Below are positions 9,096-59,572 of a DNA stretch of 64,000 bases, piece by piece (position 1 is the first letter of the stretch; every line of letters begins with the position of its first letter). The DNA lies in NCBI GenBank assembly GCA_014871385.1, contig CM026426.1, positions 24,021,437 through 24,085,436 of the forward strand, given 5' to 3'. This DNA is from Ceratodon purpureus. Its lineage: Eukaryota; Streptophyta; Bryopsida; Pseudoditrichales; Ditrichaceae. A program made the position numbers and the translations under genes. Below the pieces are notes generated by a model. The model ran no database searches. It was not told where the DNA came from and was given only the letters and a program-made list of their open reading frames with translations.

Positions 9096-9236
<141 letters not shown>

Positions 9237-9539: not shown

Positions 9540-10000
9540 TTATTTTATTTCATATAAGTTACAAGGTACAACTCAATTCTGGGCGTGGGAAACTAGAATT
9601 GTTTATAAAAACAATGATTTCAATTTTAGTCGTTCACAAATTGGCATTATTCAGTGACGGTTGAATGTTTTCTGTTTTTGTTTTGTTTTTTACTATTATC
9701 TCTTCCTCATCTCATAATGTGAGCTAGTGATTTTTTTTTTTTTTTAATGATAACACAGTACTACGGTATGGAAGTGTGTAAAATAAAAGACATTAAAGTG
9801 CAAGGAGAGTTTTTATATTTCATATAACTCTAAACCAGGCATGAGAAATTAGAATTGGACCATTTGTTATGTAAACAATGATTTGAGTTTTATTCCTCCC
9901 ATGAATTGCATAATCCCAAGAGAATTGAATGTTTGTTTTGGTTTTTTTTAATTTATTATTATCTCCCGTTTCTCTCATAATCTAAACTACTGTTTATGTT
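9540..10000. repeat. Diverged tandem duplication, period about 270 bp
   Basis: Units at about 9540-9745 and 9815-10000 share blocks such as AACTAGAATTG-like, AAACAATGATTT, TTGAATGTTT and CTCATAATNT in the same order. Copy B has one unit at about 36825-36990. Confidence 0.6.
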
Positions 10001-25900: not shown

Positions 25901-26104
25901 ATATATAATAAAATTACAATTTTTTTACTTTCAAATTAGGAGTGAATTTGTACGAAATTATTTGCTTCTCATGGATATTTAATAAAAGTAGAATATTTGC
26001 TACTTATGAATACTTAATAAAAGTAAAAATGTATTACTTTCTAATAAGAAAATTTATTTAGCCTTTTCTATAAATCATTAGTTCTAGTAGTTTAATTTAC
26101 TAGC
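22946..26104. other. AT-rich non-coding region with a diverged tandem duplication
   Basis: No supported gene. Blocks at about 24605-24905 and 25335-25635 align over ~300 bp (shared TACTTCGTA, TATACTATAATATA, GTATTTTAAGAA and TCATATTTGATGC in order), giving a period near 730 bp. From 25830 to 26060 a short unit around TTTGCTTCTCATG-ATATT repeats, bounded by inverted CTTATTAGAAAGTAAT at 25840 and 26031. Confidence 0.5.
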
Positions 26105-35000: not shown

Positions 35001-37956
35001 CGCGGGAAATTCTCCCCTCGTTTTTTGAAAAATATTTGAAAATTTAAATAATGCTACAACTTTCCACCACATATTGAACCAAAACTGTTAATTTCTTCCA
35101 CCAATTCAAATCAGAATAGCAGTTACTATTAACATGAATTTAAAGACTTCATGGTATACAAACCGTTGACTTTCTTCAATGAGTCATTATTCTGTACACT
35201 CCTACTTGCTTAATGTATGTTTCATTTATTGGAATCATTCGTTTGGTTATTTTTTTGCTTATATTTCTAACTGTCTACCAAACCACTCCATAACTTCTCT
35301 GCTAAAATCCAACCCATTTAAACTCGTTTTAGAATTTTAAGTCTTAATAGTCGTCCATCTTCATATTCCCCGCTTTGATTTGTTTTTATTTTAAAAACAG
35401 AATACTTCTACTTCTCTTTCACTATACCGCTTCATCTTCTCAATTTAATTCGGGTTACCTTCTTTTTCCTGTATTTTTAACGTTCCTCTATCTATACACT
35501 TTCCACTCTCGAACCCGTTATTCATTTACTTATTCTACATATTCCTCCATGTTTTTTCTCCTCTATTTTATGTTTTTTTTTAATACGTGTAATTCTACTA
35601 ATCTACCACTCTAACCCTTGAATTTTCTGAAATATTAATGTTCGATTCCTTTCTTTTCTTTCATTTCAAACGTTCCTATTTCAATTTATTTCCTCCATGA
35701 CCCATGTCTAATTATATTTTACTAATTCTAGCACTCTTCCACCATACCCATTCTCCATGTACTGAAATTCCTTAGATCTTAAATATGTATTTATATTTGG
35801 TTCTTTCACATGCTCCTCCATCATTCGAGCTTGATTTTTCTTATTTCTTTTTCCTTCCTTTGTCCATTCACTACTCTCCTATCTTGATTTTAATTTTTTT
35901 AAGGTGATATTCATCCCCCTCGTTACCGTCATGGCCTTTCGAACATTTTATTATCATTATTTTTAAATCCGTTCATTGTGTCATTGCAAACCTCTACTTT
36001 TGCCACTCTTTCAATATACTCCTTTAGTTACCTATAAAATGCGAACCCTCAAGCAACCACTCTTTATTTTGGTATTTCAACATTCCTTTACAATTTGTTG
36101 CACTCCATTTGTTAAATTTTATACCTCCAATTGCATCACTCTATTACCCTATTCCTTTAGTTTTTATTGACTATCATACCCCTCTTTCATATGTATATTT
36201 CAAACTTCCATGTATCACTACATCATGGCCGTCGTCTGTTTATTTTAATAGTTATAATTTCGCTAATTTCCTCTCTTATAATATTTCGATGGTTCCCTCA
36301 TTTGTTTGCTTATGAATATACTTCTACTTCACAGTCTCCCCCATTGTAGCAAATTGTAGTTTTTTAATATTACTCCGGTCGTCGTTATAGTTCTTAAATT
36401 TATATAGATCCTCAACCTTCTTATTCCCTCTTTTGTTGATTAAATTATGTACTTACTATTTTGAAACAATACCACCCCACCAAACATTTTTCATCATAAT
36501 TCTTACTATCTTAATAATATATTTATTCCTAAAATTATGCTCCATCACTAAACGTTCTCGTGTAATTATTTCATTTTCATACCTGTAGTTCCAAGTATTT
36601 CACGTCGTACCTCTTTGATTTATCCTTGGTACACTATATGTCTCTATGACTTCTCGTATTTGTTTAATTTTCTCATTGTGTACTAGTATGTCATTACTCT
36701 TGTACGTATATACTATACAAATTGTAATCCAATTTTATATTTTTATTTACCTTTGAGTGAATATGTAAATACATATCTTCCAATAGTATATATTGTACAT
36801 GTCTATTTTAATTTTTTTTATATTTCATATAACTCAAAACTAGGCGTGAAAAACTAGAATTGGTTATAAAAACAATGATTTGAATTTTTTTCCTTCCCAA
36901 ATTTCTATTATTCCAAGACAATTGAATGTTTTTTTATTTTTTGTTTTTTATTTTTTTTAATTATCTCCCTTTCATCTCATAATCTAAACTACTATTTATG
37001 TTTTTTTAATTTTATCAAAATACTAGATTATAGGAGTTTGTAAAATAAAAGAAATAAAAGTGCGAGAAAACATTCTATAAAAAATTAGAGTACAAGAATC
37101 TATATATAAATTTTAAATGTGTACCACTGATGAGAATAAGCTTGAAATATTTTTCTCTGAGATTTACGAAAACGGTAAAATTTTAATGCAAAACTCTTGA
37201 CTATGTAAACATAGTTTGCAGTGCAAGAAAAAACAAGTGTGTACATGAATTTATGTGGTGAATTACATTTGATGCATTTTGTCCGCGATGTTCCTTTTTT
37301 CATCTTGTTGTTGACATTTACTCTTCTGATTAGTTATTATAAAATGTTAATTTATTACCATATGCTAAAACATGAGTAAGTGTGTTTCTTTATAAGAAAG
37401 TCCTTACAAAATGTTTTTGTATACCCACAATGTTTACGGTTCTTTACATTCAATAGAATATATATTCTTCTTCATAAACGTGTTCACATTATTTGTAAAT
37501 CCTAGGGGGTTATCAACCCTCAATGAACCAAAATATCACATAGTTGATTAGATCCCAATTTTAAACATCGACCCCACCTCCCTGATCACAGGATCTTTTG
37601 TACATTCCTCACAACATCCGGGATATGTTTGAATTTTCCTTTTTGGGGCTAATACCGTGTCCAAACAATCCCAAGTTGGATTGCCTATGACAAGTTGGAT
37701 TTCTACTCCCCCACGGGGTATCGTGGGATTGTTTTCCTGGTTATTAGCACTGTTTGTTGGTTATTATGAAACCAACAAAGTAGTGCTTCATACCTACGGT
37801 TTCTAGGTAGGAGTTTGGGGTTTTGTTTTGGTCCTTATGCATTAGATATATACGAGTTTAAATCAAATTTTTTACAGTAAAGAGAAGTTAGAGCCGTTGT
37901 TAGAAGGTTGGTTCAATACACGGTATTTACAGGTACTCGCTTACCCAACTTTCGCC
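35001..37956. other. AT-rich internal spacer of hAT B
   Basis: Colinear with 7916-10690 and 11590-11845 of copy A. The ~870-bp array-plus-TATA segment of copy A is missing at about 37690-37705. Nothing coding is supported. Confidence 0.55.
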
Positions 37957-39455
37957 ATGCCTCGTAACGACCGAGGAGGATCGTCGACTCCAAAAATGAA
38001 ACACCTCTTGGATCCATACGCTACAAATGATCCTGATTTGCGTAGCAGAGTTTGGATGGGAACAGGAACCATCACCATGGAGGATGGTTACTTGCAGGGA
38101 ATATGTGAAGATGAAGCACCTTCTGAAGTTGATCCCAGTACATCTACGTAACGAGGCTGCGGAGAAGCAGGCAAAACGGGGTGAGATCAGGGTCGACAAT
38201 TGTGAAAGTAATCATTTCACTATTAGATATTACAAGATATTTGAAGCAGCACAAATCCAAAACTCCTGACCTCTGATTATGTTGTATTCGAATATGGCAA
38301 TGGTGTGGGCGGAAATAGTTTTACAGAAGAAGGTCGACTAGCGCACAATCTTGGGCCTGAGGACAGATAGAATTAACAGAGAACACATGGATATTGACAC
38401 GGCGTGGGTTGGACATAGCGATTGTCCTCCACTTCATATTTCAAACCGTCGAAGTCCACCAACACAAGATGCTGGAATACAAACTCTACCTATCGAATAT
38501 GATTTCGAAGAACAGCACATACGTCGTTCAAGCGATGATAATGATGACAACTATCAACGACGTTGCTCAAACAAAAATCCCAGGAATTGCGGTGGGCATC
38601 GTGGCAGAGAGTTATCACGTATTAACCATCAGGAGTGTGGACAATATTCTGCCCACAGGGGACACCGTTTGCAAGAACGTCACGACGTAGGACGCCACGA
38701 ACAAGGCCATGGCTACACGGAACCGGAAGGAGCGCCCATAACCTTCGACTTCACGTTGGATGTGTATGGCCCGTATCGGGGACGACCTTGGCTGGATTAT
38801 GCAACGGGATCAAGATCCTATACAGACGGCTGGTCGGAAATACTGAGTCCTCCAAGGAGTGCTAATCCGCGCCATCAAACACCTGCGAGAGAGGTACCTC
38901 ACAGTTATTCCCCAGATCGCGAAGAAATTACGCAACGACAGGGGCGTGATGATTACGCAACTCCCCGTCCATACCGAGGATATGGTGGTCATGCTACCCT
39001 GCCATTTGGCCTTTTTGCGGAAGATGATATGGTGGTCATCTTCTCAGACTCCGCCTCGTATATTTACTCCACCTCTAGGTTATCACAACAACGGTACTCA
39101 TCACAATAGCGGAGAAAGCCGCAACGTACTTCATCCTGATGACAGAGTACCACCTCCTCCTTTTGAATACCCTCCAAGTCGAGTTGTAAGAGATTGCTAT
39201 TTTGCGGAAGAATCAAAGTTGGAGCGGACAAGGCAAAATTATGTACTATAGATGGAGAATCATGCGTTTCACCTTAGACGGGATAATTGAAGATTGATGG
39301 AGGAGAGAGAGAGACTTTTGAGAGCCTCGACAAATTCTATAGGGAACGGGCCACAAGAAACGTACGATCGAGGATGTCCAAGCGAACTCCCCAATGATGG
39401 GAACTGGGTTCATCCATATGACTACAATGGACTAGGGTGGACGGGAGACTATTAG
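37957..39455 (+). pseudogene. Third hAT cargo gene (R/G/H/P-rich), copy B (broken)
   Basis: The start is ATG 37957 (MPRNDRGGSS) and the likely native stop is at 39453 (...GWTGDY). It has the same domain layout as copy A and retains about 160 bp of 3' coding sequence that A lost. Stops include TGA after IQNS near 38269 and TAG where A has TGG (near 38339), and there are frame changes near 38035 and 39030. The promoter and array upstream are deleted, so it is unlikely to be expressed as in copy A. Confidence 0.55.
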
Positions 39456-43155: not shown

Positions 43156-43960
43156 AACTGGCAACGAAGAGCGAGGAGATCCGTAAGTTCCATGCCGAGC
43201 AGGAGGAGACTTTGGATGAGATCCAGAAGTTGGTGGGAGTTCCGGGTGATGTAGTCAACAAGGCCAAGTTGTTCGACGAGAATGTGCTGTAGCCAGCTCA
43301 ATTGGAGAATAGAGAGAGGATTATCATGATCCTTTCGAGGTGCGAGCACTCGATGAACAAGATCCTGAAGTTGATACGGAAGTTGCTCAATCCAGGAACC
43401 GGAAGTCCCAGCGTCGGAACAAGACTTCCCGGATCTCCCTCTCGGACAGTGGTAGGGGAATCTCGTAGGGCGGAGTTCAGGACCCCAATGGTGCGACATC
43501 TCCGGTTTGAGGAACAAATGGCTGTTGACTCAGACATTTTCGCACCGGCTCGAACGATCGCGGATCTGATCCGAGAAGTTCAGGCCAAGGAGGCATCACC
43601 CGGAGCCAGTACGGCTCAGCAAGGCTGCACGATTCCCACCGGGCAGGCAGAAGTGACGGGAACAACAATCACTGTCAGGCGATCCGAGGAGCAAACGGTA
43701 TTGGAAGAAGTGACTCGGTCCGTGCAGCCGGTTGTTCCCCCAACGCTAGGTTCATCGGATTTTTTTTCCTGGTTCACCAAGGAGAGGTAGCCGGAAATGA
43801 ATGGAGGAGATCCATTTCACCGCCCGGACGTACCGGAGTGACCCTAGAGGGAACACTTACCCCTTCACCCACGGCTTGGACCGATACCGTGACTCCTACC
43901 CCAACTGTAACACCCGTGGCAAAATCTCCCGCTGACTCTTCCGGTGCTGGGGAAAGTTCG
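43156..43960 (+). other. Downstream coding remains of the nested element
   Basis: Coding-like sequence with charged and Pro/Thr/Ser-rich stretches continues after the ORF at 42094-43155 up to the MULE insertion. More appears on the far side (57698-58040, charged and Lys/Ser-rich). It looks broken and no domain is recognised. Confidence 0.4.
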
Positions 43961-44090
43961 TATGTGAGCGGAGAGCGTAGAGCGGAGAGCGGTGAGCACA
44001 GAATGGAGAGCACAGAATTGACAATTAGCAAAATTTTCAAAAGCAAAGTAGACCCTATAACCGTGGAAAATTACTAAATTAAGGCTTGAT
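43961..44090. repeat. MULE left terminal inverted repeat
   Basis: Pairs with 57490-57697; the best-conserved part is the first ~65 bp, rich in GAGCGGAGAGCG. The inner boundary is approximate. Confidence 0.75.
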
Positions 44091-44199
44091 TTTGACACTT
44101 TTTTTAGGAAAAGAGTATATTACCGTGGAAATCAGGGTTATCTCTGGTAAGAATTTGTTACGTTTGTTCTCTAAGATACAAATTAGGGCTGATGTCATG

Positions 44200-44217
44200 A
44201 TGACGTCATGTATATAT
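44200..44217 (+). promoter_or_regulatory. ATGACGTCAT (CRE/bZIP-type) site next to a TATA box
   Basis: The 10-bp palindrome ATGACGTCAT at 44200-44209 is followed at once by TATATAT (44211-44217), a plausible promoter for the cargo ORFs at 44719 and 45481. ACGT-core palindromes are bZIP binding sites in plants; use here is inferred. Confidence 0.4.
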
Positions 44218-44357
44218 TTTGTTAGATTTATCATGGGTTTAGGCAAGATACAATGATCTGGCGTTAAGTTTTAGATCAAACAAATAATTCTTTCATAGGA
44301 TTATGTAAATGCACATGGAAAGAAACAAATTTCACAGAACATAAAGGAGGCAAGGTT

Positions 44358-45385
44358 TGAAGACTTCCTGGAATATTTCAAAATTCGGGTATAGTATCTT
44401 AACTACTGAAACCAAGATATACCTTGTAAGAGTCCTTGTCTTCATCGAAGATTACTCTCTCTTCCTAGGCAGCAAAGCTTCTTCATTTGAGTGATACAAG
44501 TAGGAGATTTTCATCATGAAACAACACTTGGTAAGCTGGGTTCCACAGAAGGAGGCCACTCTTGGTTTCTTGAGCTTGTTTCTAGGTGGCGTATTTGGAT
44601 AGTGACACAGTCCTTGGCATTCCTCTCTGTATGCGAAGGTAGCCTACGAGTTCGGGAGGGTCAATCTGCAAGCTTGCGTGGAACGTTTTAAGACTACAAC
44701 AATTTACTGTCTTGCGCGATGCCGAAGGTGTGTTATGCGAGATCGAGGAGGACGAGAGTGGCTGTAGGTTTGGCCCGAAAGGCACCGGCGAGTTATGAGG
44801 AGCTGCGGCCCTGGCTGCTGGAGGTGGAGCGCGCCACGGAACGAGGCATGGACCTGCCACCGTTTAGGCACATCGGAAGGCTACATGTTGGTGAAGGTGA
44901 ATGGCGTTGGACAATGCTTTGTACCAATGAGCTTCTCCTTATTATGGAGTTGTCCCTAATCTCGTATCCCTTGCCATCCACCGTCGATGAGAATCCAGTT
45001 GTTCAGCTGCCCAAAGTGATCATATCGGATGGCGAAACCTGCTGGTTTGATATCAACAACAGTTGGACTGTATATCCCCCGAAGGATTATTTCTGTGAAG
45101 ACTAGTGGGGTGTTCGAATACATTCCTTTAGATTTGGTCCCTTATTGGATCTAGATACGAGTATTCCAGCATGATGTTTTTAGATAATATAGATAATTCT
45201 AGGAATAAGAGAACTCGAAACAACCAAAAAGAAATGGTCTTAAAAGTTCGTGGAATATTTCAGAGTTCGTGTACGATAATGGAGTACCTGAAACCAAGAT
45301 GTATACCAAGTCAGAGTGCTTGTCTTGGTCGAAGAATTCTCCGTCTTTAGATAAGAGCATTCCTAGCTTAAGTGTCAAGCAACGA
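44358..45385 (+). repeat. Duplicated ~130-bp leader blocks (44358-44490 and 45240-45385)
   Basis: Both blocks share TGGAATATTTCA, CTGAAACCAAGAT, CCTTGTCTT/GCTTGTCTT and TCGAAGA in the same order, each upstream of an ORF. Confidence 0.6.
44719..45105 (+). CDS. MULE cargo ORF, unrecognised (128 aa)
   Basis: Starts MPKVCYARSRRTRV and ends PPKDYFCED. It has a basic N-terminus, then a region with EWRWTMLCTNELLL and TWFDINNSW-like sequence. No family is recognised. A leader block upstream (44358-44490) is repeated before the next ORF (45240-45385), suggesting that the two ORFs arose by local duplication or belong to one spliced gene. Confidence 0.4.
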   Translation: MPKVCYARSRRTRVAVGLARKAPASYEELRPWLLEVERATERGMDLPPFRHIGRLHVGEGEWRWTMLCTNELLLIMELSLISYPLPSTVDENPVVQLPKVIISDGETCWFDINNSWTVYPPKDYFCED

Positions 45386-45480
45386 TCTATATAAACCTTA
45401 GCAGACGTCCTTGAAGTTGTATAAGCTCAATCATTTCTGTAGAACTTAAGCGTGTACTTGCTAGGGAGTTGTTTGAAGGT

Positions 45481-45993
45481 ATGGGCGATTCATTTGAGGT
45501 CGTTGCTTGTGAAACGGTTTTACAGGATTTGCTTAAGCGGATGGCGGATGGGCCTAACCCCTGGGATCATATAGGTAGTAGTGCGACGCAGGGTTGGACT
45601 CCTCCGACGGTAATCACGTTTGAAGACGTCGAGAACGCTCGTGCTGTGTCGAAGAGTTGGAGGCGTGAGATTGACAGCAGTCCTGAATACGCATGCCTTC
45701 GGCTGGCGAGGTGGGATTACTTTTCGTACGAGGGTCGCCATTGGAGTCCGAAGGACGAATACGAAGTCAATTGGTTCAACATCAACTGGAGAGTTTTTAG
45801 GAGTTCTTGGACACTTGCAAATCCAATTAACAACGAGAGGTTGGAGACAGCGTCCCTTGGAGAACTTAGTTGCGTTGAGTTAGATCAGTTGAGGTCATTG
45901 CTATCTGCCAATGGAAATGAGGTCTTGGAGGTGCCGGAAGGAGAGAAAATGTCTCCGAGGAATGGTATCTGGATCTCTCCCAAGAATAGGTAA
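45481..45993 (+). CDS. F-box-like protein in the MULE (about 170 aa)
   Basis: The start is taken at ATG 45481 (MGDSFEVVACETVL), since the frame opens only slightly earlier at a non-ATG codon. Residues ~45-80 read ENARAVSKSWRREIDSSPEYACLRLARWDY, split here as ENARAVSKSWRREI and SSPEYACLRLARWDY. This resembles the second half of an F-box (ARxVCKSWRxxI). F-box proteins link targets to SCF ubiquitin ligases. The leucine-rich first half is weak, so the call is tentative. It ends in a Ser/Pro-rich tail. Confidence 0.4.
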   Translation: MGDSFEVVACETVLQDLLKRMADGPNPWDHIGSSATQGWTPPTVITFEDVENARAVSKSWRREIDSSPEYACLRLARWDYFSYEGRHWSPKDEYEVNWFNINWRVFRSSWTLANPINNERLETASLGELSCVELDQLRSLLSANGNEVLEVPEGEKMSPRNGIWISPKNR

Positions 45994-46288
45994 CATGGCT
46001 ATGGAAACGTGAGCATTTTAGTTGTTCATGTTAGTATTCTCTAGTGTTCTGAACAGAATTTGCAGACTAAAATATCTTCATCACTGAAGTGGTTTTCCCT
46101 TCAAGCATATGAGAAATGAGAGCTAAAAAGACTTGCAATTGTAGACCTTTACATACACGAATACAAACGGGAATTGAGAATGATGAATATTGTAGCTGGT
46201 TTGCAATAAAGTAGACAATGGAGTATGTAATAAACTTCAATGAAATCAAATCAAATCAAATGAAAACAATGGTAGACCGGGGCCTCTT
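45994..46288. other. Short convergent spacer
   Basis: AT-rich, between the F-box-like ORF and the methyltransferase gene. It includes ATCAAATCAAATCAAAT near 46245. Confidence 0.4.
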
Positions 46289-49200
46289 TCAAACTGAGAA
46301 CATGCTACAATCGCTACTTCCACTCTCAGAACCCGATGACTCGGAATCTCCTTCTACAGCCTCTTCATCGACAAATAGAAGGGCCCTAGGATCAAAACTA
46401 GTGGGCCGACTAGGAACATATCTAAGTGCACCACATTGAAGCGCTTGTGCTAAGCCCTCTGCATAGTCCGGAAGTATAAAAGGCTGAATCGGTCTGGAAT
46501 GAAGACGCCACGATGGAGTGGACCCGGCTCTATGCCCACTTCGCGGTGTTGTCACAACTACTCTGCAATAGAAAGCCAGAAGTGTTTAGATCGAATAGGT
46601 AAGTTTGCGTACAGAAACAATCTTAGATGAATTGCACGAAACAAACAAAATCTAGAGTAAGACTTACAATACTTAGTGGGTCTTTGTTTCTTTGCTGGTG
46701 CTTCCTCTGCTGTTGCCGGTCTAGGATGTTAAGGGGGGCCCATGGGAGATTTTGCGGCCATATACGGCTTGAGAATGGACTTGAATATGGCTTCGTCATC
46801 CTCAAAAGCTATAATATGACGACCAATAGCCTGGCAAGCCTTGACAGAGGCCCCTGCAACTCATACCATGATGAAGAAGTGAGAAACTGAGGAAGGAATG
46901 AGAGGAATATTTATGTAGGGACATGTAAGAATGGTTACATGTTCCTGCCTTCCAGTCGAGGACTATGTCGCCGGGCTTCGAGAGCTCTCCAATTATGCTC
47001 TCCATCATCTTAGGGGCTTTCTCCCTTGGCCCTCTCCATGGAACATCCCCATTCATTTGCTGAGAATCAACGTCGATAAAGTTGAAAATCGCAACACTCT
47101 CGGTAATGTTGAGGTCGCCATGTATGACATCGGATTTCTTCGTTTGAAAGGAGAACTTAGATGGCGGCTCGCCACCACGAACGAAGACGCGGATCCAGAA
47201 CCGATTAGTCTGCAATCAACCAAATTATGTCAGAATGAATAAACGGAAGGGATAGTACTAAGTAAAGTGAAGGAAAGGAAAGGATGAAATTACCAGGTTG
47301 TCGGGGTTCGTAGGAGAAGTCAGGCCGAGCACATTGAAGCCCCACCAGTCTTTGTAAAGGACGAACTTAGTGGCGCTAGCTTCTTTCGAGAATCTCCGTA
47401 GCCAACGCTTGATCATTGTTGTAGATGATGCACAGAGCGCCATCATTTTGCAAGTACAGACTTGCGAAATAGAAAATGTCGTACACATAATCCTTTTCAC
47501 GGGAGTTCCAAGGAGGAATCACTGTAGGGGGATCGGAAACGAGAGGGACAAGAAGATTCTCAGGGATGTCTACGATGATCAAGTCGACTCCCAGATGATT
47601 CTCATCCTGGCACCGCTCAGGAACTTGGTTATGGCGCCCACGTCCAAACTGGAGAAACAACGCTATAGGGTTAGACTATATGAAATTAATTGAAGTTTAC
47701 GTAATATCTTATTATTGAAGAAGAGAATCATACCTTGCGCACGAACTCTAGAGTTTTCACCCAATCCGGATGGCCACCCTTGTCTTTGAGCTCCATGTTA
47801 CAAACCAGTAACGAGGTCACGGATGACTTGATGATAGAAACACAAGTGGAATGGGGAGTTCCTGCGGAGGAGGTGCTTGCCGGGAGAAGTCTGGCCTTCC
47901 TTTGCTCCAGAAGACCTCTGGTGATAGCGGATGCACTTACCGATGAAGGCGCAGGAGTAGGGGACGGATTGGAAACGACAATAACAGGAGAGGGAACGGC
48001 AGCCCCCTTCTCCGGTGCGGAGGACTCTGCACCAGTCTCCTGAGAGCCCTGGGACTTAGCACCCAATTTTCGCAGTCTCCGCGCTCTTCCTTTCTTTGGT
48101 GGAGGTGCAGATGATTGTTCCTGCAGGCCTTCGGCCTCCTCCGAACCGTCTCCAGAATCCTCGATGGCTAATGATCCTCCGTCAAGCTCAGATTTGAGCT
48201 CCGCTTCGGACTCAATAACGAAACCTCGAATGCAATCCAGGTACCAACAACCAGCACCTAGGTGGGGCGATTTGTACCTCTTCAACTGTAGAGGAGTGTA
48301 GATACACTGATCAGAGCCTTTCTCAATCCACGCTGAAAAGTACCGGGGGAGCTTCTCGAGTGTAATTGCACCTTTCGGAAGCAGCTCTCTCTTGAAGTAC
48401 CTAATGAAGTTCACTTGCCATTGATCAGAATCATGTGATTGACATCGTATACAAGCGAAAAGAAAATAAGATAGGAAGACGTGGTTCATAAGTGTCATAC
48501 CGGTATGTCACACGCTTGACAACATTTGCAGCTCCAGGAAAAGTAGAAAAATCAGACTTCTTATCAAAAGCCTTCTCTGCGCGGGTACCAAGAAATGAGG
48601 GGAAGGCCTTTTCCCAAAGGAGAATACGCCAACTCTCCACATATGCGTCCGGCCGCATAACTCCCGGGAAGGACTTCCACTTGATGACAAGGTTCTCCGT
48701 CTTGCAGATGTCATCAAACTCCCGGGTAACAGCATCTTCTATCTGCGACAGAAAGGTAAAGTCGTTGAGATAAATATTGACATGGTGCAAAGAAGAAGTG
48801 GTTTTAGTTTTTTTTACGAAGTTTGAAGGAACTATACCCCAGCCCAAAATGTTGCCTTGTTCAACCAAGGGTCGAAGTCGGCCTCCTTAAAGTCCTGGGG
48901 CAAAAATCTGTAAGATTGTCGTGCACTTGGTGAAGAGTTCCACCACCTCAGCCAACGCGCTTTAAACTTTGCATCAACAGCTGCAGGAACAATCTTCTGA
49001 AGCTTCTCCACTGTCATCTCCGGCTTGGAGAATTCACTGTAATGCCGATTGATCTGGGATGTGAACATTACATGAACGGAAAGATTAGATTTTAAACTAG
49101 TAAATGGAAACTACAGTAGAAATGTCAAGAAACTCACCTCTGCAAGGAAGTCATCACCGTTTTTGGGATTGGCAATGGCCAGGTACTTGGTGAAGTCCTT

Positions 49201-51752
49201 CTTCTTAATGGTGTCGACCATGCTGGTTGAAGCGGCAGACATGGCATCCCAAACACCTGACGCAGTTTGCTCTGGAATGGGTGTTTTCTCCTTGTAGATC
49301 CTGGCAGCTTCGTCAGAAGCAGCATTTATTTCTCTCTGGGAAATAAAATTATCAACTTGTGAGTGTCAGGAGCAAGACAGTTCATGTCATTTAGACGCGT
49401 GAGGGAGGGGGGAGTTAGTGCTTACACGATAGAGAAATGCGATGAAGACTTTTGTTGGCAAAGTAAACCATCCAGGAATTGATGGTTTGTGATTCAAAGA
49501 TATTTGATACTCGTCCGCTGTGAGCAGATCCTTGAATTCCTCCAATTTCATCACACCGAAAGAGCGAATACGAAAGAGTTTTGCTGGAAGATTACTCTTG
49601 ACGTGATCATTCTCTGTAGACCTGCTCGAAAAGATGGTAGTTAATTAAAGGCGAGAAGTGCAAGTTCAAGCAGTTAGCAAGAAGTTTGGACAATAAATAG
49701 TGATACAATTCTTACCAGTTAATGTCGTGCATGGCATGAAGAAGGTTTCCCACATGACCGCGTGGGTCAATAACAATGCAATGCACGGAGATGTGCCACG
49801 CTGGATCTTCGCTGTGATGATTGTTGATATGTCTGTACCATGCGGCAAGGCGATGGTTACCTTCCCAGACATAGAACATCTTCCCAGAGAACTCCTTCCA
49901 GTCCGGGTCGGCCAAGAGCTCATCTTCGAAAGCATCATTGACTTCTTGCCAACAAGGGCTCTAGTCAGCCTTGATCTCCTCAGTGACATCGGCTGTCTTC
50001 TCTTCGTGGTTGTACATGGAAATGTACATGACACGGTCTCCATCTCTAAATCCATTGACAAACTCTCGCTCCAAATGTTGAACTCCCATCTCTCCTACTG
50101 GTCGCACTCTTGCCATTGAGAGCATCCTGCAAACAGGAACTAGGATACGGGACTTCGTCTTTGGGAGTATTTGGAGGTCGTTGATGACGCCAATGGAGTC
50201 TTGCTTGTGCTGTATCCGATGTTCCAAATCACTCTCCACTGCATTCGTCAATTCACTAGGACAAGAGGGCGCTGGCAACTGATCCTGTGTTTGAGTTACC
50301 TGTCAAAGGTCATACGTATTTAGACTTGATTCGAAGGCAAGGATCGTGAGCAAATCAAATAGTTAAAAGAATAATAAAAGAATTGCTTCTTAGACTGATA
50401 CATCTCTTTTGAGAACCAAATAAAGTAGTAATTAGTAGAGAAGAGGCCACTATGTGCGTGGTGCACGACTATAATAATCCCTAGCCTGTCTGCAGTTCCA
50501 GTGACGGCGCCTCTTCCAAAATCGCCTCGTCTGCTGGACAGGGCATGGCAATATCGCTGGGAGGGCGAAGACAACATGGGCTGGCCTCCTCACTCTAATA
50601 GGCGAGGAAGGAGAAGGTGGAGACATAGGCGGAGTACCAAGTCGCGGAGAAGTGGGCACATAGCCCGGGATGTAGGCTCGTAGACAGGGGACGTAGGCAT
50701 GCACTGAGGGGAGTGGACCTCAAGAGGTCCACTACCTAAACCTACAGGGTTGCCTAAATCACACCTACAAAAATGGGGCTGATCAAATGAATCCGAGAGG
50801 TCGGAAACATTGATCACTGAGATTGGGGAACTGATGGACAAGGGTGCATCTGAGAATACCTGGAGAAGAGGAACAAAGTCAATGACAGTTTACCATCTAA
50901 GGTTTTAGAACACAATAAGAAAGAAATATGGATGTTCAATAAACTACGCAATGTTAAAAAGAAAAGGCAAAGATGATTAGATTACCTCAGTTTCTGCTGG
51001 AGTTGGGCCATCGAAATCACTTGCAATAAATTGGTCAGTGACCTCCTACAACACAAAGAGTATGCAAATCATAAGCAATCAGCAAAAAGAAGATGAAAGA
51101 TGTAAATAAAATAATCCATTCCCATAAGAGTATCAACTATTCTCTTAAGAGCTCTAAATCGCACAAGGGAGCTCTAATTTGCACTCGCATCTGCAGCCAC
51201 CAAGGCCGCGGCCATGGCTGCCGCAGCCTCCACTGCTTCCTTCCACAATGTCTCCCCCACATTCCCCCCCGCCATGTCGGGGGATGTCGGCTCCAAATGC
51301 GCCACTTGCTGCCCCTCACACCCTGGAACCGAGGCTTCCATATACGCAAGGGGGCTCGCATCTGCAGCCACCAAGGCCGCGGCCATGGCTGCCGCAGCCT
51401 CCATTGCTTTGTTTCACAATGTCTCCCCCACATTTACCCCCACCATGTGGGGGGATGTCGGCTCTGAATGCGCCACTTGCTGCCCCTCACACCCCGGAAC
51501 CTTAATTTGGTGTGCTGACAACATTACACACCCCGGAACGATTTTACGAATGCTACAAAAATATTTAGCCAATGGCAATCCAGCTCCCCGTCTCTTCAAT
51601 GGTGCACTCAAAATGTTGTCATTTGACTTCGCTTTTCTACGCGATTCTCTCCTCTTCCTCGCTCTCCTATTGGTAAAATCTGTACCATACGATTTTCTTC
51701 TACGATGGGGAGTGACAGAAGTGGAGGGAGCTGACCCTCCACTCTCCTTCAT
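46289..51752 (-). CDS. ParB-like domain / beta-class DNA amino-methyltransferase fusion (multi-exon MULE cargo)
   Basis: About 12 exons on the minus strand with good GT-AG borders: for example 49716 donor, 49623 acceptor, 49427 donor, 47651 acceptor, 47295 donor, 47208 acceptor, 46939 donor and 46853 acceptor, all keeping frame. The N-terminus (from ATG 51752) is basic, then has two 57-residue repeats ending AAAAMAAALVAADAS and a Pro-rich linker. At 50299-49716 is a ParB-like region with FVNGFRDGDRV and the GNHRLAAW box. At 47651-46660 is a methyltransferase in beta-class order: a motif IV-like VDIPEN (DPPxN expected), a target-recognition stretch, then KPGDIVLDWKAGT and, after splicing, AFEDDEA. 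It is predicted to methylate adenine or N4-cytosine in DNA, but motif IV has changed. There are in-frame stops near 49966 (TAG), 51413 (TGA) and 46730 (TAA), and a frame change near 47390, so it is probably decayed. Confidence 0.65.
51187..51510 (-). repeat. Two 171-bp tandem coding repeats
   Basis: Units start at 51187 and 51358 and are nearly identical. Each encodes GCEGQQVAH, NVGETL and EAAAAMAAALVAADAS. An Ala-rich coding repeat in the N-terminal part of the methyltransferase gene. Confidence 0.8.
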
Positions 51753-51810
51753 GTGTTTAACTATCGATACAGCTCACCTTAGAACATGGCTCTCCTTTTA
51801 ACATCCCTTC

Positions 51811-51822
51811 ATCTTATATATC
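51811..51822 (-). promoter_or_regulatory. TATA box of the ParB-methyltransferase gene
   Basis: On the minus strand GATATATAAG lies about 60 bp upstream of ATG 51752. It faces away from the transposase gene, which starts near 52338. Confidence 0.5.
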
Positions 51823-52337
51823 CCAAACCCCCAACCCCTCTAACTCAGCCCTAAATACTTACCTTATGCTTAACTTACTTAAATTATTTGAAACTATAAT
51901 TAAATGCATTTTGAATTAAAGTTGATGAGATCAATCTATTATTATGAGAGAGAATCTGAAGTCCACCAAAGAATAAAAGATTTGAATTAAGCACTGGAAT
52001 ACTTGTATCAAATATGGAAGCAACTGACGGCTCACTCTAATCTCACCAAACTTCACATCGAATAGAATCGGTCTCACGATTCAATTACTAAAGGCGTAGT
52101 TCTAAAAACTCCTACCCAGTACAGTTGGGCCTGCAAAAAGCAACATTCTTATTAGTTAGCGCCGTCTCTCTTAATTCATACATTCGTTAGATGGACACAT
52201 GGGCATTCCAACCTGAATAAAACGATCAACAGCAATGCATCATTCCTTTCACTTTGCTCTCGCGATACTGCGTCGTTAGTACTCTCACTCTCCTCCCTTC
52301 TTTCACTAGTATCACTGAGTTGCCTGCGAACTTGGGG
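51823..52337. other. Divergent promoter region between methyltransferase and transposase genes
   Basis: About 0.5 kb of AT-rich sequence separates the two divergent genes and probably holds both sets of control sites. No specific transposase promoter is assigned. Confidence 0.4.
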
Positions 52338-53453
52338 ATGGTCTGTCCGTACGCCCAAGGCATGGGCATCCCTCTTAGGTTTTGCGTAGATGACGATGGT
52401 CTAGCTACAATTTCCTCTCTTCGCCTAAGTCTCGGATTCCATTTCCGTGAGGATACCATCAGTATAGAAGAGGAAATCTTTGATGACGTTACTGCAGAGG
52501 TTACCCACACCCTCGGGCAACTTTCCACGAGAGATGAGAACAATATGTTGCAGTGGAGACTCTTCCCTCGATCCTATAGAGTCTATGGTCTTACTGATTC
52601 TCTGATGGCTGCATCAACTGAGATCCTCACCCCGCGTCGCTCATCTACATGCACAATTCACACTCCCTTACCTCGTGATGTCAAGGTCAAAGTCGAGCCT
52701 GGTACTGAAACTTCAGACGTAGAGAAACCTCCCCTTCCGACAGTCATTTCTCTCTCCTCTGATGACGAAGTCAGTCCCGTCAAGTCGGTGCCTAAGGTCC
52801 ACGCAGATGCTCCTCCTTCCAATGTCTCTCCTCCATTGTCCCAGGTCACAGTTAGCATTGTCCCCCTCCTTCAACAGCTTGCTAAGGCGCGTGGGTCAAA
52901 AAACATTTTGAAAAAGATAGACTATTCCACTATTAGACACGAGAGAGTTGAGTACTTGCCTGCGAAGTTTGATGGTCTGGTTCTTTTTGAGTTGCCCCCA
53001 GCTGCTGCAGGTTCCTCTAAGCTCGCCGCCAAGTCAATGCAGGGAATGGACAAACGATACGACGGACACTTGTGGACCAAGACCATCACAACAAACATCA
53101 AAAACGACTTCGGACTCTCTTTTCGAAGTTCCACCTGCGTCGGATGGCTGCGCTGCACCATCGAGGAGTATGACTTCTTGAAGTGTGTTCCCAAGATCTT
53201 TGATGTTAACGAGACTGAGTTTGAAGGGTGTACCCTGCAAACTTTTCTCATGGATCAGCCTCCTCCATCTGATTCCACGCTAGTGTGCAAGGTATGTAAA
53301 GAACCTCCATCATGTGTAGCTACATGTGAGGCTAAGATTTATTACGTAGTGGGCAAAGCAAATCAGACTAGAGCTTGTATTTACATAGGAACACATGATC
53401 ATCCAGTGAAAGTTGGAGACTATAGAGACTCTAAAGCAGAAATTAGTAGCTGA
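52338..53453 (+). CDS. MULE transposase, N-terminal part with GCM/WRKY-type zinc domain
   Basis: The first ATG is 52338 (MVCPYAQGMG); the frame is open from 52254 but begins with a TTG. It has an acidic N-terminus, a Ser/Pro linker with SDVEKPP, then CVGWLRCTIEEYDF, C-x2-C in CKVCKEPPSC and IGTHDHPVKVGDYRDS. This Cys/His arrangement resembles the GCM/WRKY zinc finger that precedes the DDE core in many Mutator-like transposases and would bind the terminal repeats. It is in frame with the core at 53472 but separated by a TGA and a TAG within 21 nt, which may be a short intron or real stops. Confidence 0.65.
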   Translation: MVCPYAQGMGIPLRFCVDDDGLATISSLRLSLGFHFREDTISIEEEIFDDVTAEVTHTLGQLSTRDENNMLQWRLFPRSYRVYGLTDSLMAASTEILTPRRSSTCTIHTPLPRDVKVKVEPGTETSDVEKPPLPTVISLSSDDEVSPVKSVPKVHADAPPSNVSPPLSQVTVSIVPLLQQLAKARGSKNILKKIDYSTIRHERVEYLPAKFDGLVLFELPPAAAGSSKLAAKSMQGMDKRYDGHLWTKTITTNIKNDFGLSFRSSTCVGWLRCTIEEYDFLKCVPKIFDVNETEFEGCTLQTFLMDQPPPSDSTLVCKVCKEPPSCVATCEAKIYYVVGKANQTRACIYIGTHDHPVKVGDYRDSKAEISS

Positions 53454-53471
53454 ATAGAATAGCAGGTAGAG

Positions 53472-54413
53472 ATGAACAACAAAGCAACCAAGAGCGCCGT
53501 TGTCTTGGAGGCGAGCAAACTACTCATCGGGAGCTACCTGCTACAGCTCGAGGATGCACCACCGAGGAAGCTGACGATGGAGGAGCTGGTTCCTGTTCTG
53601 GATCGTTGCAAAGACATGGCGTCACCAAACATCCGCAACAAAGTCGCGACCTTCAAAAGATACAGAAGGTACGGAATCATGGACGGTATCACCAAGCTCC
53701 GTGGAAACAGTCTCTGGGCGTATGTCCAAGAGAATAGGTTTCCTGGTCAGGGATCTATGCGTGACAAAGTCTTCGTCTTCAAGATGTCGGAGGTCGGGCC
53801 GGGAAGTGGTGTCGACTTGGTCAGCCGAATGCAAGCTGGTGAAGATTTAGAAAACGCATGGATCATGTTCGACCATGTAAAACGCGTGAAAGATTGGTCG
53901 ACGATGGCGTGCCATGTGTACGATGCCACCTACTGCCGCGTGATGACAATCGCCACTTGCGACATGCAGTCCGAGGACACGGAGGCCCAGCTCGTCTTCT
54001 GGAAAAACCTGAACCTGGTCATGGAGATCAATGGCGTTGCAGCGCCGAACTTCAAGGGGTTCATGGCAGATAACGCACAGGCGAATTGGAATGCAGTGCG
54101 AATCCTTTACGGCAATGGCAACAAAGAGGACCTAATGGAGGACCGGGAGAGGTCGTGCTTGTTCCACTGGACTCAGAACATGGTCGCGTATACGCAGAAG
54201 CACTTCCCCGAAGAACTCTGGGAACAGCACAAGAAGATGTGCACTCAGTACAAGAATGCGACCAGCATGGCAGAGGCGGACACTCTGTACCACGCGTTGC
54301 GAGCATGGTGGGCATCCAACGGGGTCGTTGGCGAGAGCAGACTCATCAAACTCGATCAGTGGCTCTCATTCTGGCACCACCGCTTCCGCTAGTAGGGGGG
54401 ATTCATGACCGAG
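53472..54413 (+). pseudogene. MULE transposase catalytic core (RNase H-like), with a TAG-TAG pair
   Basis: From ATG 53472. D151 in VYDATYCRV, D200 in KGFMADNAQANWNAVR and the following CLFHWTQNM with WEQHKKMC (glutamate, then histidine nearby) match the D-D-E layout of Mutator-like transposases. The ORF reaches HHRFR, then TAG TAG GGG GGA TTC ATG ACC GAG, ending at a GTATGA donor (54414). Related proteins usually have Q-W-G-G there, so the two stops look like CAG and TGG turned into TAG. The intron at 54414-54519 keeps frame into the next exon. Confidence 0.7.
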
Positions 54414-54519
54414 GTATGATCTCTCCACTCTGTTTTCATGTTTATGATACTGGTTTCCTAGCCCTGACCTACAAAACTGTAATCGGTGAATCTAACAGCA
54501 CCTACTGTCAAATCTGCAG

Positions 54520-56012
54520 AAATTCACGAAAGAAGAACTCACAGAGATGCCGACCTGTAACCTCGCCGAAACAGTTCACAACAAGTTGCTCCAAGCTTCA
54601 GGAAACAATGGGAACGACCTCTACGTTGCTACCGTGGACGATTTCGTTCGGGCTTTTCTACACGTTGTCAACTACTACCAGTTCCTCAAAGGTGACAACG
54701 GCGGTACAGGACCGTCGAAGAAGAAACTCAGGCTTCGGATGGCGGAACGCAACGCGAAGAAATGGGGAAATCCTACACTGCTCGATAAGCCCATGCTCGA
54801 TATGCCAGGCGCGGATGAGTTCTGCACCCGTCAGCCTATCATGCCTGGAGCGGAAGTGTTTGGTTCACAAAAGCAAAAAGCCGACGTCCCCATCGGAGCT
54901 GACGAGGAGTCTCATCGCCCGGACAAGACAAACTTCTCACGCCCAAGAGGCCCAAGACGTGCCGTCAGGGCTTGCCCTATGCAGATGCCCGTCATTGTGG
55001 AAGACGACTCCGAACACGACACCGAGGTACAATGTACCCAACCTCCTGCCCAGGAAGTTGATTCCCCTTTACCTTCACCTGTGAACAAGGGCGGCATTCG
55101 CCATGTCAACGCGGTTGAAGAAACGAAGGTCGACGTGAAGGAGTGGCACATTTCCAGACTTCACAAACTTTCTGCGAAGTGCTGCTGGGCCCAAAGAGCT
55201 GAAACGAAGAAGAAGTGCACTGAGAGAATCGTCAGGGGGCCCCATTGCACAGCTGCCCCGACCTACACTGGGCTTTGGACTAACTACCGCAGGAACACAG
55301 TCGAGAAGACAGAGTTCTTCTTCTGCTCTGATGATATTGAGCGCTGCGTGAAAGGCTCTAAGCGGAAGTGGGTAGCACACTACTCAAAGGACGAGGAATT
55401 CCCCTCCATTCCAGAGGTGTGGCCAGTGAAACTTGGTACTAACCTAAAACTCACTGAGATTCTTGCCCTCGAAGCAGCGGGCTTTCACTTCCGCCGAAGA
55501 AGCGGGTCTCCCCAAGACGCCTCTTCTCCTCTGCCCCGCCCCCTGCAAATCTTAGCTCGGTGCCAGTCCTTGCAGACGCTGACCACTACCCTGACAAGAG
55601 AGACGGCAAGATGGTGAAGCGCACTGCCACTCGTCCCAATCCGGCGCAGCGACTCTCCATGGACTCCTCCGAGTTGCTTAAAGCGCGCCTCCGTTCCGTC
55701 ACCATGATACCTGAGTCGGGCCACGGTTGCATCATTGGGCTGGATTCGGGCGTCGCTCCACACATCACACGGTACCAGATTACAATCACTTCTTACCCTG
55801 GTTGCACTTGCCCAGCATTCAAGAAGACGATGACTACGTTCCGTGGCAAGACTCAGTTCTCGTATTGTAAGCACCTATACTACATACTCTTGAAGGTCTG
55901 CAACCGTGATCCCGAAGCGGAGCTTTTCATCCATGCGCCTACCTTCAGCTTCAACGAGGTCAAGCTACTCTTAGAGAGTGGAATCTTGCGCCACCCCTTG
56001 GCGAAGAAGTAG
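54520..56012 (+). pseudogene. MULE transposase C-terminal part with SWIM zinc finger
   Basis: After the acceptor TCTGCAG at 54519 the frame reads KFTKEELTEMPTCNLAETVHN, a typical post-core helix of MULE proteins, then a Pro/charged linker and a Cys-rich stretch (CCWAQRAETKKKC...). The last 150 residues (55560-56012) contain the SWIM finger C-T-C-P-A-F...Y-C-K-H-L-Y-Y at 55806-55880. Two frames overlap between 55560 and 55617, so a frame change or an unseen intron lies there. SWIM fingers are usual in Mutator transposases. Confidence 0.7.
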
Positions 56013-56263
56013 GTAGCACTCCTTCTTTAGTACTGCCATTTCCACAATGGCCATTTGTCACGTAGTGAATGATTTTAGTAATATCCCATGTAGTAAGTCC
56101 GCAATACGGAAGCTATATTGACTTTTTCATTATAAAGGCTTTGTCGTTCACATTGATTGCATTCTATTTCAAAACATTCTATCTTGAACAAGTGCACTAT
56201 ATACTTCGTATCCCCTGACATGTACCTTTTATTACAGCAAACATATACTTGTTATTAGATGTC

Positions 56264-56716
56264 TTAATCTTCGAACCTAACACGTTTAGGGTTGCCCACT
56301 ACACTATCAGCAGGACTGCCAGCCGCTGACTGTACTACAGGACAAACTACATTCGCATTCGCTTTCGTTCCCACACTTAGAGCGTGTCCTTGGAATGAAC
56401 GTTTCAGCAATGGCCCACCTCCCCGCCTCCGATTTACTGATTCCCTGGAATAGGTTCCCCTTGGGATCTTTCCAACCTTCGAGTATGCATGTGGTTGCAA
56501 AGGCACATCTGCGTCCTTCTCTAGCACTATGATTTCATCCGAATTTTCTGAACGTGGAGGGTCAGCTCTTACATCCGGTTGTACGTCAACATCCGTTGTC
56601 GAAGTACGCCCTTGGCTGTTGGCCATCACCTCTTCTTCGTCCTCCACCTCAACATATGGTTGAAATGGACAAACATCGTCAGCAAGTGAAACAACAATAT
56701 CTCTGACGTCTTCCAT
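56264..56716 (-). CDS. Small acidic MULE ORF (150 aa), unrecognised
   Basis: From ATG 56716 (MEDVRDIVVSLADD). Acidic first half (VEVEDEEEV), then a basic RRRGGG patch and the C-terminus KRVRFED. No domain is seen. It lies between the transposase 3' end and the right terminal repeat, transcribed towards the transposase. It is complete and unbroken, and could be an accessory protein or chance. Confidence 0.4.
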   Translation of the reverse strand: MEDVRDIVVSLADDVCPFQPYVEVEDEEEVMANSQGRTSTTDVDVQPDVRADPPRSENSDEIIVLEKDADVPLQPHAYSKVGKIPRGTYSRESVNRRRGGGPLLKRSFQGHALSVGTKANANVVCPVVQSAAGSPADSVVGNPKRVRFED

Positions 56717-56948
56717 AGCTGCTGTCCCGCACTACGGAAAAGAGCTTCACATAACACCAACACAAAAGAGGAAGAGACATTCCATAATCCTATCTTAAAT
56801 ATCCGTGAAGATGATGCTTGGCGCCCTTGAAAATCGGCTTTTCATTCATTTAAAAGTTGTCATCCTCCTAAACCGAATGGAAAAAGATGAAGGTTTAGCA
56901 AAGGTCATTTAGCATTTAAAATTTTAAAAAAAAATTAAAAAATGAAAG

Positions 56949-56988
<40 letters not shown>

Positions 56989-57489
56989 ATTTATAAAAAA
57001 TGAAATTAAAAAGATTAAAGTAAAGAAAAGCAATATTTAATATGAAGGTTTAAAAGAATATGAAGGAGATTAACAAATTGAATGTGAAAATAAAATGATT
57101 GTGAAAATAAAATGAAGGAGAAAATTAAATGAAAGGAGGCTTTTGACCCCTCTAACAAGATACATAGAATAAAGAAAATTAATAAAAAATACAAGACAAT
57201 TATTGAAAAAAAAAAAAAAAAAAAAAAAAGAAAAGGAGAAAGACATGTAGACTATGGTGGATGAATTCTAGCAATGTTAAGAAAATGTTACGAAATTAAA
57301 TGTTACTTGATCCCTGTTCAGAGGTTCAATACCAATACATTTTAAGTAGTAATTTGCATATAAATTTAAGGAGATAAGGGGAATTACTGTATGCCTGAAC
57401 TAGTTAGAAGGAGCTGGAGCATAGTAATTGGTGCACGTTAAAAAATTAATCACCAAGAAAAGAGGAAATGAACTACAAATTCAATGAAA
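56717..57489. other. AT-rich MULE spacer with poly-A tracts
   Basis: Contains A39 (56949-56987) and A24 (57206-57229) and many GAAGGA/AAATGAAGG units. No gene seen. Confidence 0.5.
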
Positions 57490-57697
57490 ATACTGTAATT
57501 AGTCCACGGTTATAGGGTCAATTAAATTACTAAAATTAGCAACTTTCCAAAAATACACTAAGAATATTCGAATCTTCTAATTTTATAATTTATTTTTAGT
57601 AAAAAAGTGCTATTTTTAGGTTCTGTTCCCCATTCTGTGCTCTCCGCTCTCCAAATCTGTGCTCACCGCTCTCCGCTCTGCCCTCTCCGCTCACGTA
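57490..57697. repeat. MULE right terminal inverted repeat
   Basis: Complement of the left repeat, with insertions making it longer. Contains TGTGCTCACCGCTCTCCGC and CCACGGTTATAGGGTC. Confidence 0.75.
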
Positions 57698-58992
57698 CAA
57701 GCTTCGCCCTTCAGGTGCTCGGATGATTCTGAGGAAGAGGAAGGATCCGGAGGAGAAGGGACCAATTACACTTTCCGGGTCCGACTCGGATACTCACGCG
57801 AGCTCCCTAGTAGGGACAGCCGGAATTGAGACTCGGACCCCGACATCCGAAACCCCTCCCTCGAGGATGGTTCCCAAGTCTCCCAAGTCTCCGAAGACCC
57901 GGGTCGTTACCCGGTCTTCCCTGGATATCAAGTCGAAGGAGTCGAAGGAGGAACGGAGCGCTAGGCGTCAAGCGGAGCGGGCAGCGAAGGCAGGAGGATC
58001 CGAGCCCCGGACGACCCGGTCAAAGGAGAAGGACTGAGAGCAGGAGAGCCAGAAGAAGTCGAAGACGGAATAGATTCCTGGCACTGGAACTGTCAGTCAC
58101 TTTCTGGATTTATAGGAGTAGGTTTCGGATCGGGGAGATCGAGATTAACCATAAAGTAGGATTCAAGGTAGATAATTAGGTATTAGGTTTTTTGATTGAA
58201 CTTCCGGCGCCGCCGCTTTTGTGGAAGCCCTTGCTTACTTAAACAGGGAAGGCAATGCAGGCCGGGTCTTCGTTTTGCATCTTTTCTCCCTATATTCCTT
58301 ATCAGTAAAGTATTCGCGTTTTGCAAGTATTGTGCATGGTTTCCAGTTAAGTGTGAATGATCTGAAAGGGATAAGAGTTCCGCTGTAGCTCGGATAGGAA
58401 GGTGATGGAAGTTGTGACGAGACCCAAATCGGAATGGTACTGGGATTGAGCGGAAAGATTTAGCGGGTTGTCGTAGGAGTTGAAGCCTCACTGTTCCGTC
58501 CCCAATCCAACCTCACGCGGAATAGCCGTCGCTAGGGTCAAAGCGGATCGAGGGGTACTTGATCGGGCTCCCTGAACTTCTGAAGAGGTTCCGCACTCTG
58601 TGAGAGGGGGATTCAGAAAGTGGTATGGGTCGCCTAGGGATAATCGAATCTTGGTTCTTCCAGATCCGTTTGTCGTTGTAGTCTCACGGATCGGAAGTGG
58701 TCGCCTGTGTGACCTTCTGACCAGAGTGTTCTAAGTCAGTTGTGAGGTAGTATCCTTTCCGAGACGTTGGTGTTTGTGGACGAAACACTTGATTGTAACA
58801 GAGAAGAGAGTCGAAGAGTAACGTTCCGAAAATACTATCCGAGCAGTGGCAAGGCTCGGAATGATTGTGAGTAACTACTTGGTGAAGCACTATTGAATCC
58901 CTCGACGATACTCGGAACCTAGTGACAATACGGAAGTTTACGCTCATTTTGAGTGCTATCCGGATGTTAGTTGCGTTTCCGTGTTCCGACAA
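57698..58992. other. Right part of the TAA element
   Basis: Begins with charged coding remains to about 58040, then ~950 bp of non-coding sequence rich in TCCGAG/CGGAAC motifs up to the right end at 58992. No other gene seen. Confidence 0.45.

Positions 58993-59423: not shown

Positions 59424-59453
<30 letters not shown>
59424..59453. repeat. Poly-C (30) in the kinase-like gene leader, copy B
   Basis: Expanded from the 12-C run of copy A; read as poly-G in the mRNA leader. Confidence 0.9.
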
Positions 59454-59572
59454 ACAGATAAAGTAACCCCTTTCCTCTCAGTGAGAATACCCAATGGAGA
59501 AGAAGCAAATCCCCCACGAGTAGCAAGCAGCCTTACGCAAAATTGGGAGAGAAAAGGTAAAAAATGAGGAGG

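Follow-up and report, generated by a model that had tools for sequence, protein, structure and literature searches.

The 64,000-nucleotide stretch of the moss Ceratodon purpureus analysed here (the window, G000:C6:24021437-24085436, in an assembly of 362 Mb and 151 contigs) contains a defunct copy of a DNA transposon with two genes. The element, at 43949-57709, carries a transposase gene and a divergent partner gene whose product resembles ParB in one part and DNA methylases in another. The whole element is dead here because the partner gene and the transposase are both broken. Contig C6 is 110,524,308 bp long, and the sex chromosomes of Ceratodon purpureus are given as 110.5 Mb (U) and 112.2 Mb (V) in the accessible part of PMC9273592; the window is probably on a sex chromosome. 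The features of the element are:

43939-43948: target-site duplication, left copy, 9/10 identical to the right copy
43949-57709: whole transposable element (dead copy), 13,761 bp; similarity to the copies on contigs C3 and C1 stops at 43949, and both ends carry an inverted repeat
43949-44002, plus strand: left terminal inverted repeat arm, 54 nt, 87% complementary to 57656-57709
57656-57709, minus strand: right terminal inverted repeat arm, pairing with 43949-44002
57710-57719: target-site duplication, right copy
52272-56009, plus strand: Mutator-like transposase pseudogene, two exons, located by tblastn of the C3 transposase
51414-51752, minus strand: exon 1 region (ATG KESGG...), homologous to L031 5555-5780; repeat D3
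50986-51045, minus strand: exon 2, GT-AG, phase 0
50453-50859, minus strand: exon 3, RNA polymerase II tail-like heptads, frameshifted in the window; may belong to a separate product
49716-50299, minus strand: exon 4, ParB/sulfiredoxin-type domain (predicted fold), EGNHRLAAW; in-frame TAG at 49963-49961
49426-49621, minus strand: exon 5
49138-49335, minus strand: exon 6
48838-49053, minus strand: exon 7
48501-48742, minus strand: exon 8
47734-48400, minus strand: exon 9, middle region and low-complexity linker
47294-47648, minus strand: exon 10, methyltransferase motif IV position VDIPEN; frameshift near 47390-47380
46939-47209, minus strand: exon 11, methyltransferase motif I (KPGDIVLDWKAGT)
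46668-46853, minus strand: exon 12, AFEDDEA, stop after GPP
46289-46560, minus strand: exon 13, acidic C-terminus

Ends of the element and its transposase

The element is flanked by TTCCGGTGCT and TTCAGGTGCT, which match at 9 of 10 positions. The C3 copy spans 16,825 bp between perfect 10-bp duplications (GCTCCTTGTG), and the C1 copy, which on a reading of its translation is inserted in retrotransposon-like sequence, has TTCTGAATAT on either side, again a perfect 10-bp duplication. All three copies examined at both ends therefore have a 10-bp target-site duplication, two of them perfect, and the C3 and C1 copies have ends of the same kind as the inverted arms in the window. The claim, first made from the sequence alone, that the partner gene is carried by a transposon is strongly supported by the inverted repeats, the duplications in 3/3 copies and the divergent transposase.

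Mutator-like elements (MULEs) are described as having target-site duplications of 8-11 bp and terminal inverted repeats, in the accessible part of a review (PMC6446971). The 10-bp duplications and the inverted repeats found here agree with both. The transposase has a C..H motif and a SWIM-like C.C..C.H motif. In the window it has in-frame stops near 53450-53465 and 54390 and a frameshift near 55480. A profile search of the C3 transposase gave no Pfam or NCBIfam match, its first exon had no PDB sequence match, and the transposase relative of a diverged family on C12 had only an unrelated subthreshold Pfam match. The sequence-only reading had named a plant-type Mutator element; duplication length, inverted repeats and the C..H and SWIM-like motifs speak for this and the lack of a Pfam family match for the transposase speaks against it. 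Because of that lack the label Mutator-like is preferred to MULE: the element fits as Mutator-like, and is not a proven MULE.

When the first exon of the C3 transposase was compared with the genome, the best 62 of 2,787 candidates were scored, so that counts are lower bounds. These 62 matches have 96-100% identity, 51 of them are without an internal stop, and they are spread over 14 contigs. As the closest candidates, they carry little information on older copies.

Two further open reading frames (ORFs) lie in the left part of the element. One, at 44719-45105, is inside the left end, in a region 92% identical in the C3 and C1 copies, and a similar ORF occurs in L070. The other, an F-box-like ORF at 45469-45993 (Pfam F-box E 0.061, below the cut-off), was weighed as a possible third gene of the element and rejected because the stretch 45313-45981 is missing from the C3 and C1 copies; the stretch 45313-45993 that holds it is probably a later insertion or a captured fragment. 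The C9 copy of the element adjoins a stretch (L036 1-200, C9:15692860-15693059) that is 79.5% identical to the transposase gene of the same family and is possibly a nested insertion.

The partner gene and its sibling copies

The partner gene is a multi-exon gene on the minus strand (46289-51752), head to head with the transposase. Exons 4-13, from 50299 down to 46289, have GT-AG borders, consistent phases and nine introns. All of the motifs named in the sequence-only reading were found on this strand in the order claimed – GNHRLAAW in exon 4, VDIPEN in exon 10, KPGDIVLDWKAGT in exon 11 and AFEDDEA in exon 12 – and its two splices, 47295/47208 and 46939/46853, are GT-AG and are placed here at 47294/47209 and 46939/46853, no more than one base off. 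The window copy is a pseudogene, with the TAG at 49963-49961, the exon 10 frameshift, the exon 12 stop and an altered donor at 46939. Sibling loci L002 and L017 are intact across the lesion sites of exons 10 and 12, and L032 and L033 across that of exon 4; assembly error may be the cause of the lesions in the window.

A search of the genome with the read-through protein gave 272 matches, with the best 50 of 5,610 candidates scored; these counts are likewise lower bounds. Thirty-three gene loci (32 copies) were mapped from it, and all of exons 5-13 were obtained in 31. The 17 splice dinucleotides, mapped from the exon borders of the window, are all kept in 28 of these 31 loci, which puts the gene structure beyond chance. 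Exon structure is identical in two subfamilies that have ~68% protein identity over exons 5-13. Eighteen of the 33 loci have no internal stop up to the last exon (one of them, L009, is without one splice dinucleotide), while two are missing exons (L024, L030) and 13 have stops, a frameshift or a truncation. Exon 4 was covered in three of the 33 loci, two of them among the 18 open ones. Between the C3 and C9 copies, synonymous divergence (dS) is 0.014 over exons 5-13, and movement of the element is therefore recent. By its sequences, the transposon that carries the partner gene is a recently active, high-copy element.

Comparison of the 62 transposase matches with 50 gene places gave nine neighbouring pairs within 22 kb, all nine on opposite strands in the arrangement of the window. 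To guard against a selected sample, three extra transposase copies without a listed gene nearby were taken, and all three also carry a divergent gene; the pairing was thus examined in 12 of the 62 transposase matches. A genome scan with the methylase family PF01555 (best 150 of 773 candidates scored) gave 32 matches, none of them closer than 20 kb to any of the 50 gene places, and eight of the 32 loci were fetched. A ParB-like DGNHR exon lies upstream in all four whose upstream stretch was fetched. Transposase was sought at three such diverged loci. The C12 locus has the head-to-head arrangement, with a transposase 36% and 44% identical over its two long pieces. At C1:5958254, gene and transposase relative share one strand, and at C8:9595672 there was no transposase in the 6 kb fetched; these two loci count against a universal rule of divergent arrangement. 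The pair of gene and transposase is found again in other element families of the genome, both related and more diverged. The C8 copy (L058/L066/L074, C8:9594500-9608000) adjoins protein-kinase-like sequence and may be a relic or a domesticated gene.

In the window, exons 1-3 precede exon 4 on the minus strand, at 51752-50453. A tandem duplication (repeat D3) is inserted in the exon 1 region at 51184-51501. Directly before the ParB exon, exon 3 codes for a tandem series of Y-x-P-[TS]-S-P-x heptads (YMPTSPV), strikingly similar to the tail of RNA polymerase II (the carboxy-terminal domain, CTD). There are five heptads in L032 (178-627), L034 and L076 (about 6442), four in L033 and L077, three in L078, and remnants in the window. 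A likely phase-0 donor follows exon 3 as GTGAG in four of seven copies (L032, L034, L078 and the window); the same position reads GTCAG in L076 and ATGAG in L033 and L077, and loss of the donor in these last two favours a separate upstream product or alternative splicing. The earlier proposal of one fusion gene is supported for exons 4-13 by their conserved frames and phases; exons 1-3 may be separate. L077 and L078 also have long repeat arrays between exons 1 and 2, with repetitive open frames on both strands.

Domains and constraint in the partner protein

The methylase part of the window gene matches PF01555 (E 8.1e-7, 29.6 bits, above the cut-off of 26.7), as does that of the C3 copy (29.6 bits), and it matches PHROG methyltransferases, the best at 1.5e-9. 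The methylase domain proposed from motifs alone is borne out by these Pfam and PHROG matches. A profile of seven in-genome sequences (A2) matched DpnA-type enzymes (4.3e-10) and CcrM (3.3e-7, over positions 18-235). In beta-class methyltransferases motif IV precedes motif I, and that order was found, with D[IV]PEN in exon 10 and GDIV..AGTG in exon 11. The glycines of motif I are kept.

The catalytic site of N6 and N4 methyltransferases is a motif IV of the DPPY/SPPY type. No motif of this type was found in the lineage of the window gene: D[IV]PEN stands at motif IV in all 46 loci (44 distinct copies, the window included), as DIPEN in 43 and DVPEN in three, and in L014 a stop lies just ahead of the motif. 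The earlier observation of VDIPEN rather than DPPxN is therefore correct and extends to the whole lineage, and on these alignments D[IV]PEN is a fixed lineage trait. In the wider family, the eight fetched loci have DQPF (5), DQPY (1), DTPF (1) and DVPED (1). Siblings with an intact DPPY, envisaged in the sequence-only reading, were not seen among the loci read, the nearest being DQPY, in the C8 copy (DQPYN), and DQPF. Methylation is doubtful in the D[IV]PEN lineage, mainly because the aromatic residue has been lost lineage-wide while the protein is still constrained; in the DQPF and DQPY sibling families it is plausible.

For the ParB half, searches of Pfam, PHROG and PDB sequences gave no significant match. 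PF02195 (ParB_N) matched none of the nine members of alignment A4, nor the window part, nor any locus in the genome scan, and the window part had no match in phages; the best weak Pfam match was DndB (PF14072, E 0.011, below the cut-off). An early structure prediction, built on nine close relatives, had a predicted local distance difference test score (pLDDT) of 38.7 and was unusable. Of the first 30 rows aligned to a medium-confidence model from nine in-genome sequences, 28 are ParB, Noc, KorB, sulfiredoxin or related chains, and the predicted fold is of the ParB/sulfiredoxin kind with a G-x-H-R motif; about 45 residues, partly helical, are inserted ahead of the GNHR strand. The ParB-like label given earlier thus stands at the level of the predicted fold, which supports a ParB/sulfiredoxin-type domain in exon 4, and finds no counterpart in profile or sequence matches.

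Between subfamilies, the ratio of non-synonymous to synonymous change (dN/dS) was lowest in exons 5-8 (0.07-0.09, and 0.06 for L033 against L002) and exon 4 (0.10), intermediate in exon 9 (0.18-0.24) and higher in exons 10-12 (0.34-0.36) and exon 13 (0.44-0.48). These values indicate that the partner protein is under purifying selection between subfamilies. Closer pairs have higher values by segment (0.21-0.37 in L002/L017, 0.20-0.31 in L011/L002), and the nearly identical methylase parts of L033 and L002 give 0.65. Along the gene dS declines: it exceeds 2 in the middle exons, is 0.6 in the methylase part and reaches 0.3 in exon 13. In the transposase half and at the left end, the window and C3 elements agree at 92%; over the gene the figure is 70%. 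Differing versions of the gene occur beside a transposase that is nearly the same throughout. The simplest reading of these patterns would be repeated exchange of gene segments between elements, and such variable, recombining versions beside a near-uniform transposase suggest that module exchange changes specificity.

Elsewhere in the window, 24001-26000 is strongly AT-rich (21.7% GC), the other 2-kb steps being mostly ~37-60% GC (28% at 8001-10000, 31% at 36001-38000). A long C homopolymer run at 59425-59455 adjoins GC-rich sequence.

Possible function and its alternatives

At a probability of about 0.5, the partner gene would encode an accessory factor recognising the DNA of its own element, with a methylase fold that is mainly non-catalytic. 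The ParB-like part and the conserved middle region would bind DNA of the element, and the methylase fold is proposed to act mainly as a module binding S-adenosylmethionine (SAM) or DNA, since motif IV is D[IV]PEN throughout the lineage. Once bound to the element, the protein would aid transposition or prevent silencing, and its specificity would shift by module exchange between elements. The DQPF and DQPY sibling families may still methylate DNA. By analogy, the nearest functional model may be VANC of the Arabidopsis VANDAL elements, a MULE clade (PMC6446971): these transposons likewise have an extra gene, and VANC acts sequence-specifically on the silencing of its own element (PMC5735166, PMC10398659). 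The likeness lies in function; the accessible parts of the two VANC papers mention no methylase or ParB-like domain. A wider form of the idea is put forward tentatively, that this plant DNA transposon family has an epigenetic identity system of its own. A ParB-fold/methylase protein would read or write a mark on element DNA, recombining modules would diversify its specificity beside a near-uniform transposase, some lineages would be non-catalytic readers, and the upstream CTD-like heptads may tie the locus to transcription.

The main rival goes back to the sequence-only reading, which proposed methylation of the element's ends or of host chromatin to control transposition. It is possible, though doubtful, that the protein works as an adenine-N6 or cytosine-N4 DNA methyltransferase whose marks on the element, or on its ends, give self-recognition or protection from silencing, with D[IV]PEN as a functional variant of motif IV. 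The PF01555, CcrM and DpnA matches, the retained glycines of motif I, dN/dS below 1 and the DQPF/DQPY motifs of related families are all consistent with this, as is the existence of retrotransposons that bear DNA methyltransferases (PMC5890265, in its accessible part). Against it, glutamate replaces the aromatic residue of motif IV in 46/46 loci, and the methylase part is less constrained between subfamilies than the ParB and middle parts. That the locus is two or three adjacent genes – a CTD-heptad protein from exons 1-3, and perhaps the ParB and methylase blocks as separate transcripts – is unlikely. In its favour, exon 3 can be followed through to a stop in the copies read, and the phase-0 GT that would join it to exon 4, present in five of seven copies, is ATG in L033 and L077, so that exons 1-3 may well form a separate product. 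Against it, exons 4-13 keep frame, phase and GT-AG borders in both subfamilies, and in L032 and L034, which are open, nothing intervenes between the ParB and methylase blocks.

A bacterial-type gene captured once and simply carried along would agree with the higher dN/dS of close pairs and with the tendency of Mutator-like elements to acquire host gene fragments (stated in the accessible part of PMC6446971), but such passive cargo is very improbable given the divergent linkage in nine pairs, in all three extra copies and in a family whose transposase has 36-44% identity, the dN/dS of 0.06-0.36 in exons 4-12 between subfamilies, and the 18 open loci of 33. The bacterial type of the domains could also point to contamination or an integrated virus, which the nine introns in exons 4-13, the inverted repeats with their 10-bp duplications and the transposase matches on 14 contigs make extremely improbable. 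Scans of prokaryotic genomes and viral contigs with the methylase and ParB alignments confirmed no close bacterial or viral source and no relative of the fusion, and phage and plasmid records gave only distant methylase matches below 60% identity.

The proposed self-recognising accessory protein has partial counterparts in several known systems. Phage and plasmid proteins that combine ParB-like and methylase domains have a similar domain pairing. CcrM and DpnA share the PF01555 profile match, CcrM over profile positions 18-235, but the moss gene has D[IV]PEN in place of a DPPY-type motif, is joined to ParB-like and middle regions, contains introns and is borne by a transposon. With the ParB/Noc/sulfiredoxin superfamily the moss protein shares the predicted fold and the G-N-H-R motif, though it has no PF02195 match and has the ~45-residue insert before the GNHR strand. 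Eukaryotic mobile elements with a DNA methyltransferase include the DIRS retrotransposons and the DNMT retrotransposons of dinoflagellates and charophytes, but these, in the accessible part of the report (PMC5890265), are retroelements with Dam-like adenine or C5 enzymes, while the moss element is a DNA transposon with a PF01555-type domain. Fungal DNA transposons that encode TET/JBP dioxygenases likewise carry a DNA-modification gene, with an unrelated enzyme and host group (accessible part of PMC12730594). A literature search that covered few subscription papers turned up no description of a DNA transposon bearing a gene for a ParB fold plus a PF01555-type methylase, and the word "methyltransferase" is absent from the accessible main text of the MULE review (PMC6446971).

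Examples of transposons with DNA-modifying or anti-silencing cargo genes are already known. If the moss protein acts on DNA, a mobile element would have brought bacterial-type methylation, or a mode of binding derived from it, into a land plant. In that case, a high-copy and recently active element would offer a direct test of how such elements mark or protect themselves.

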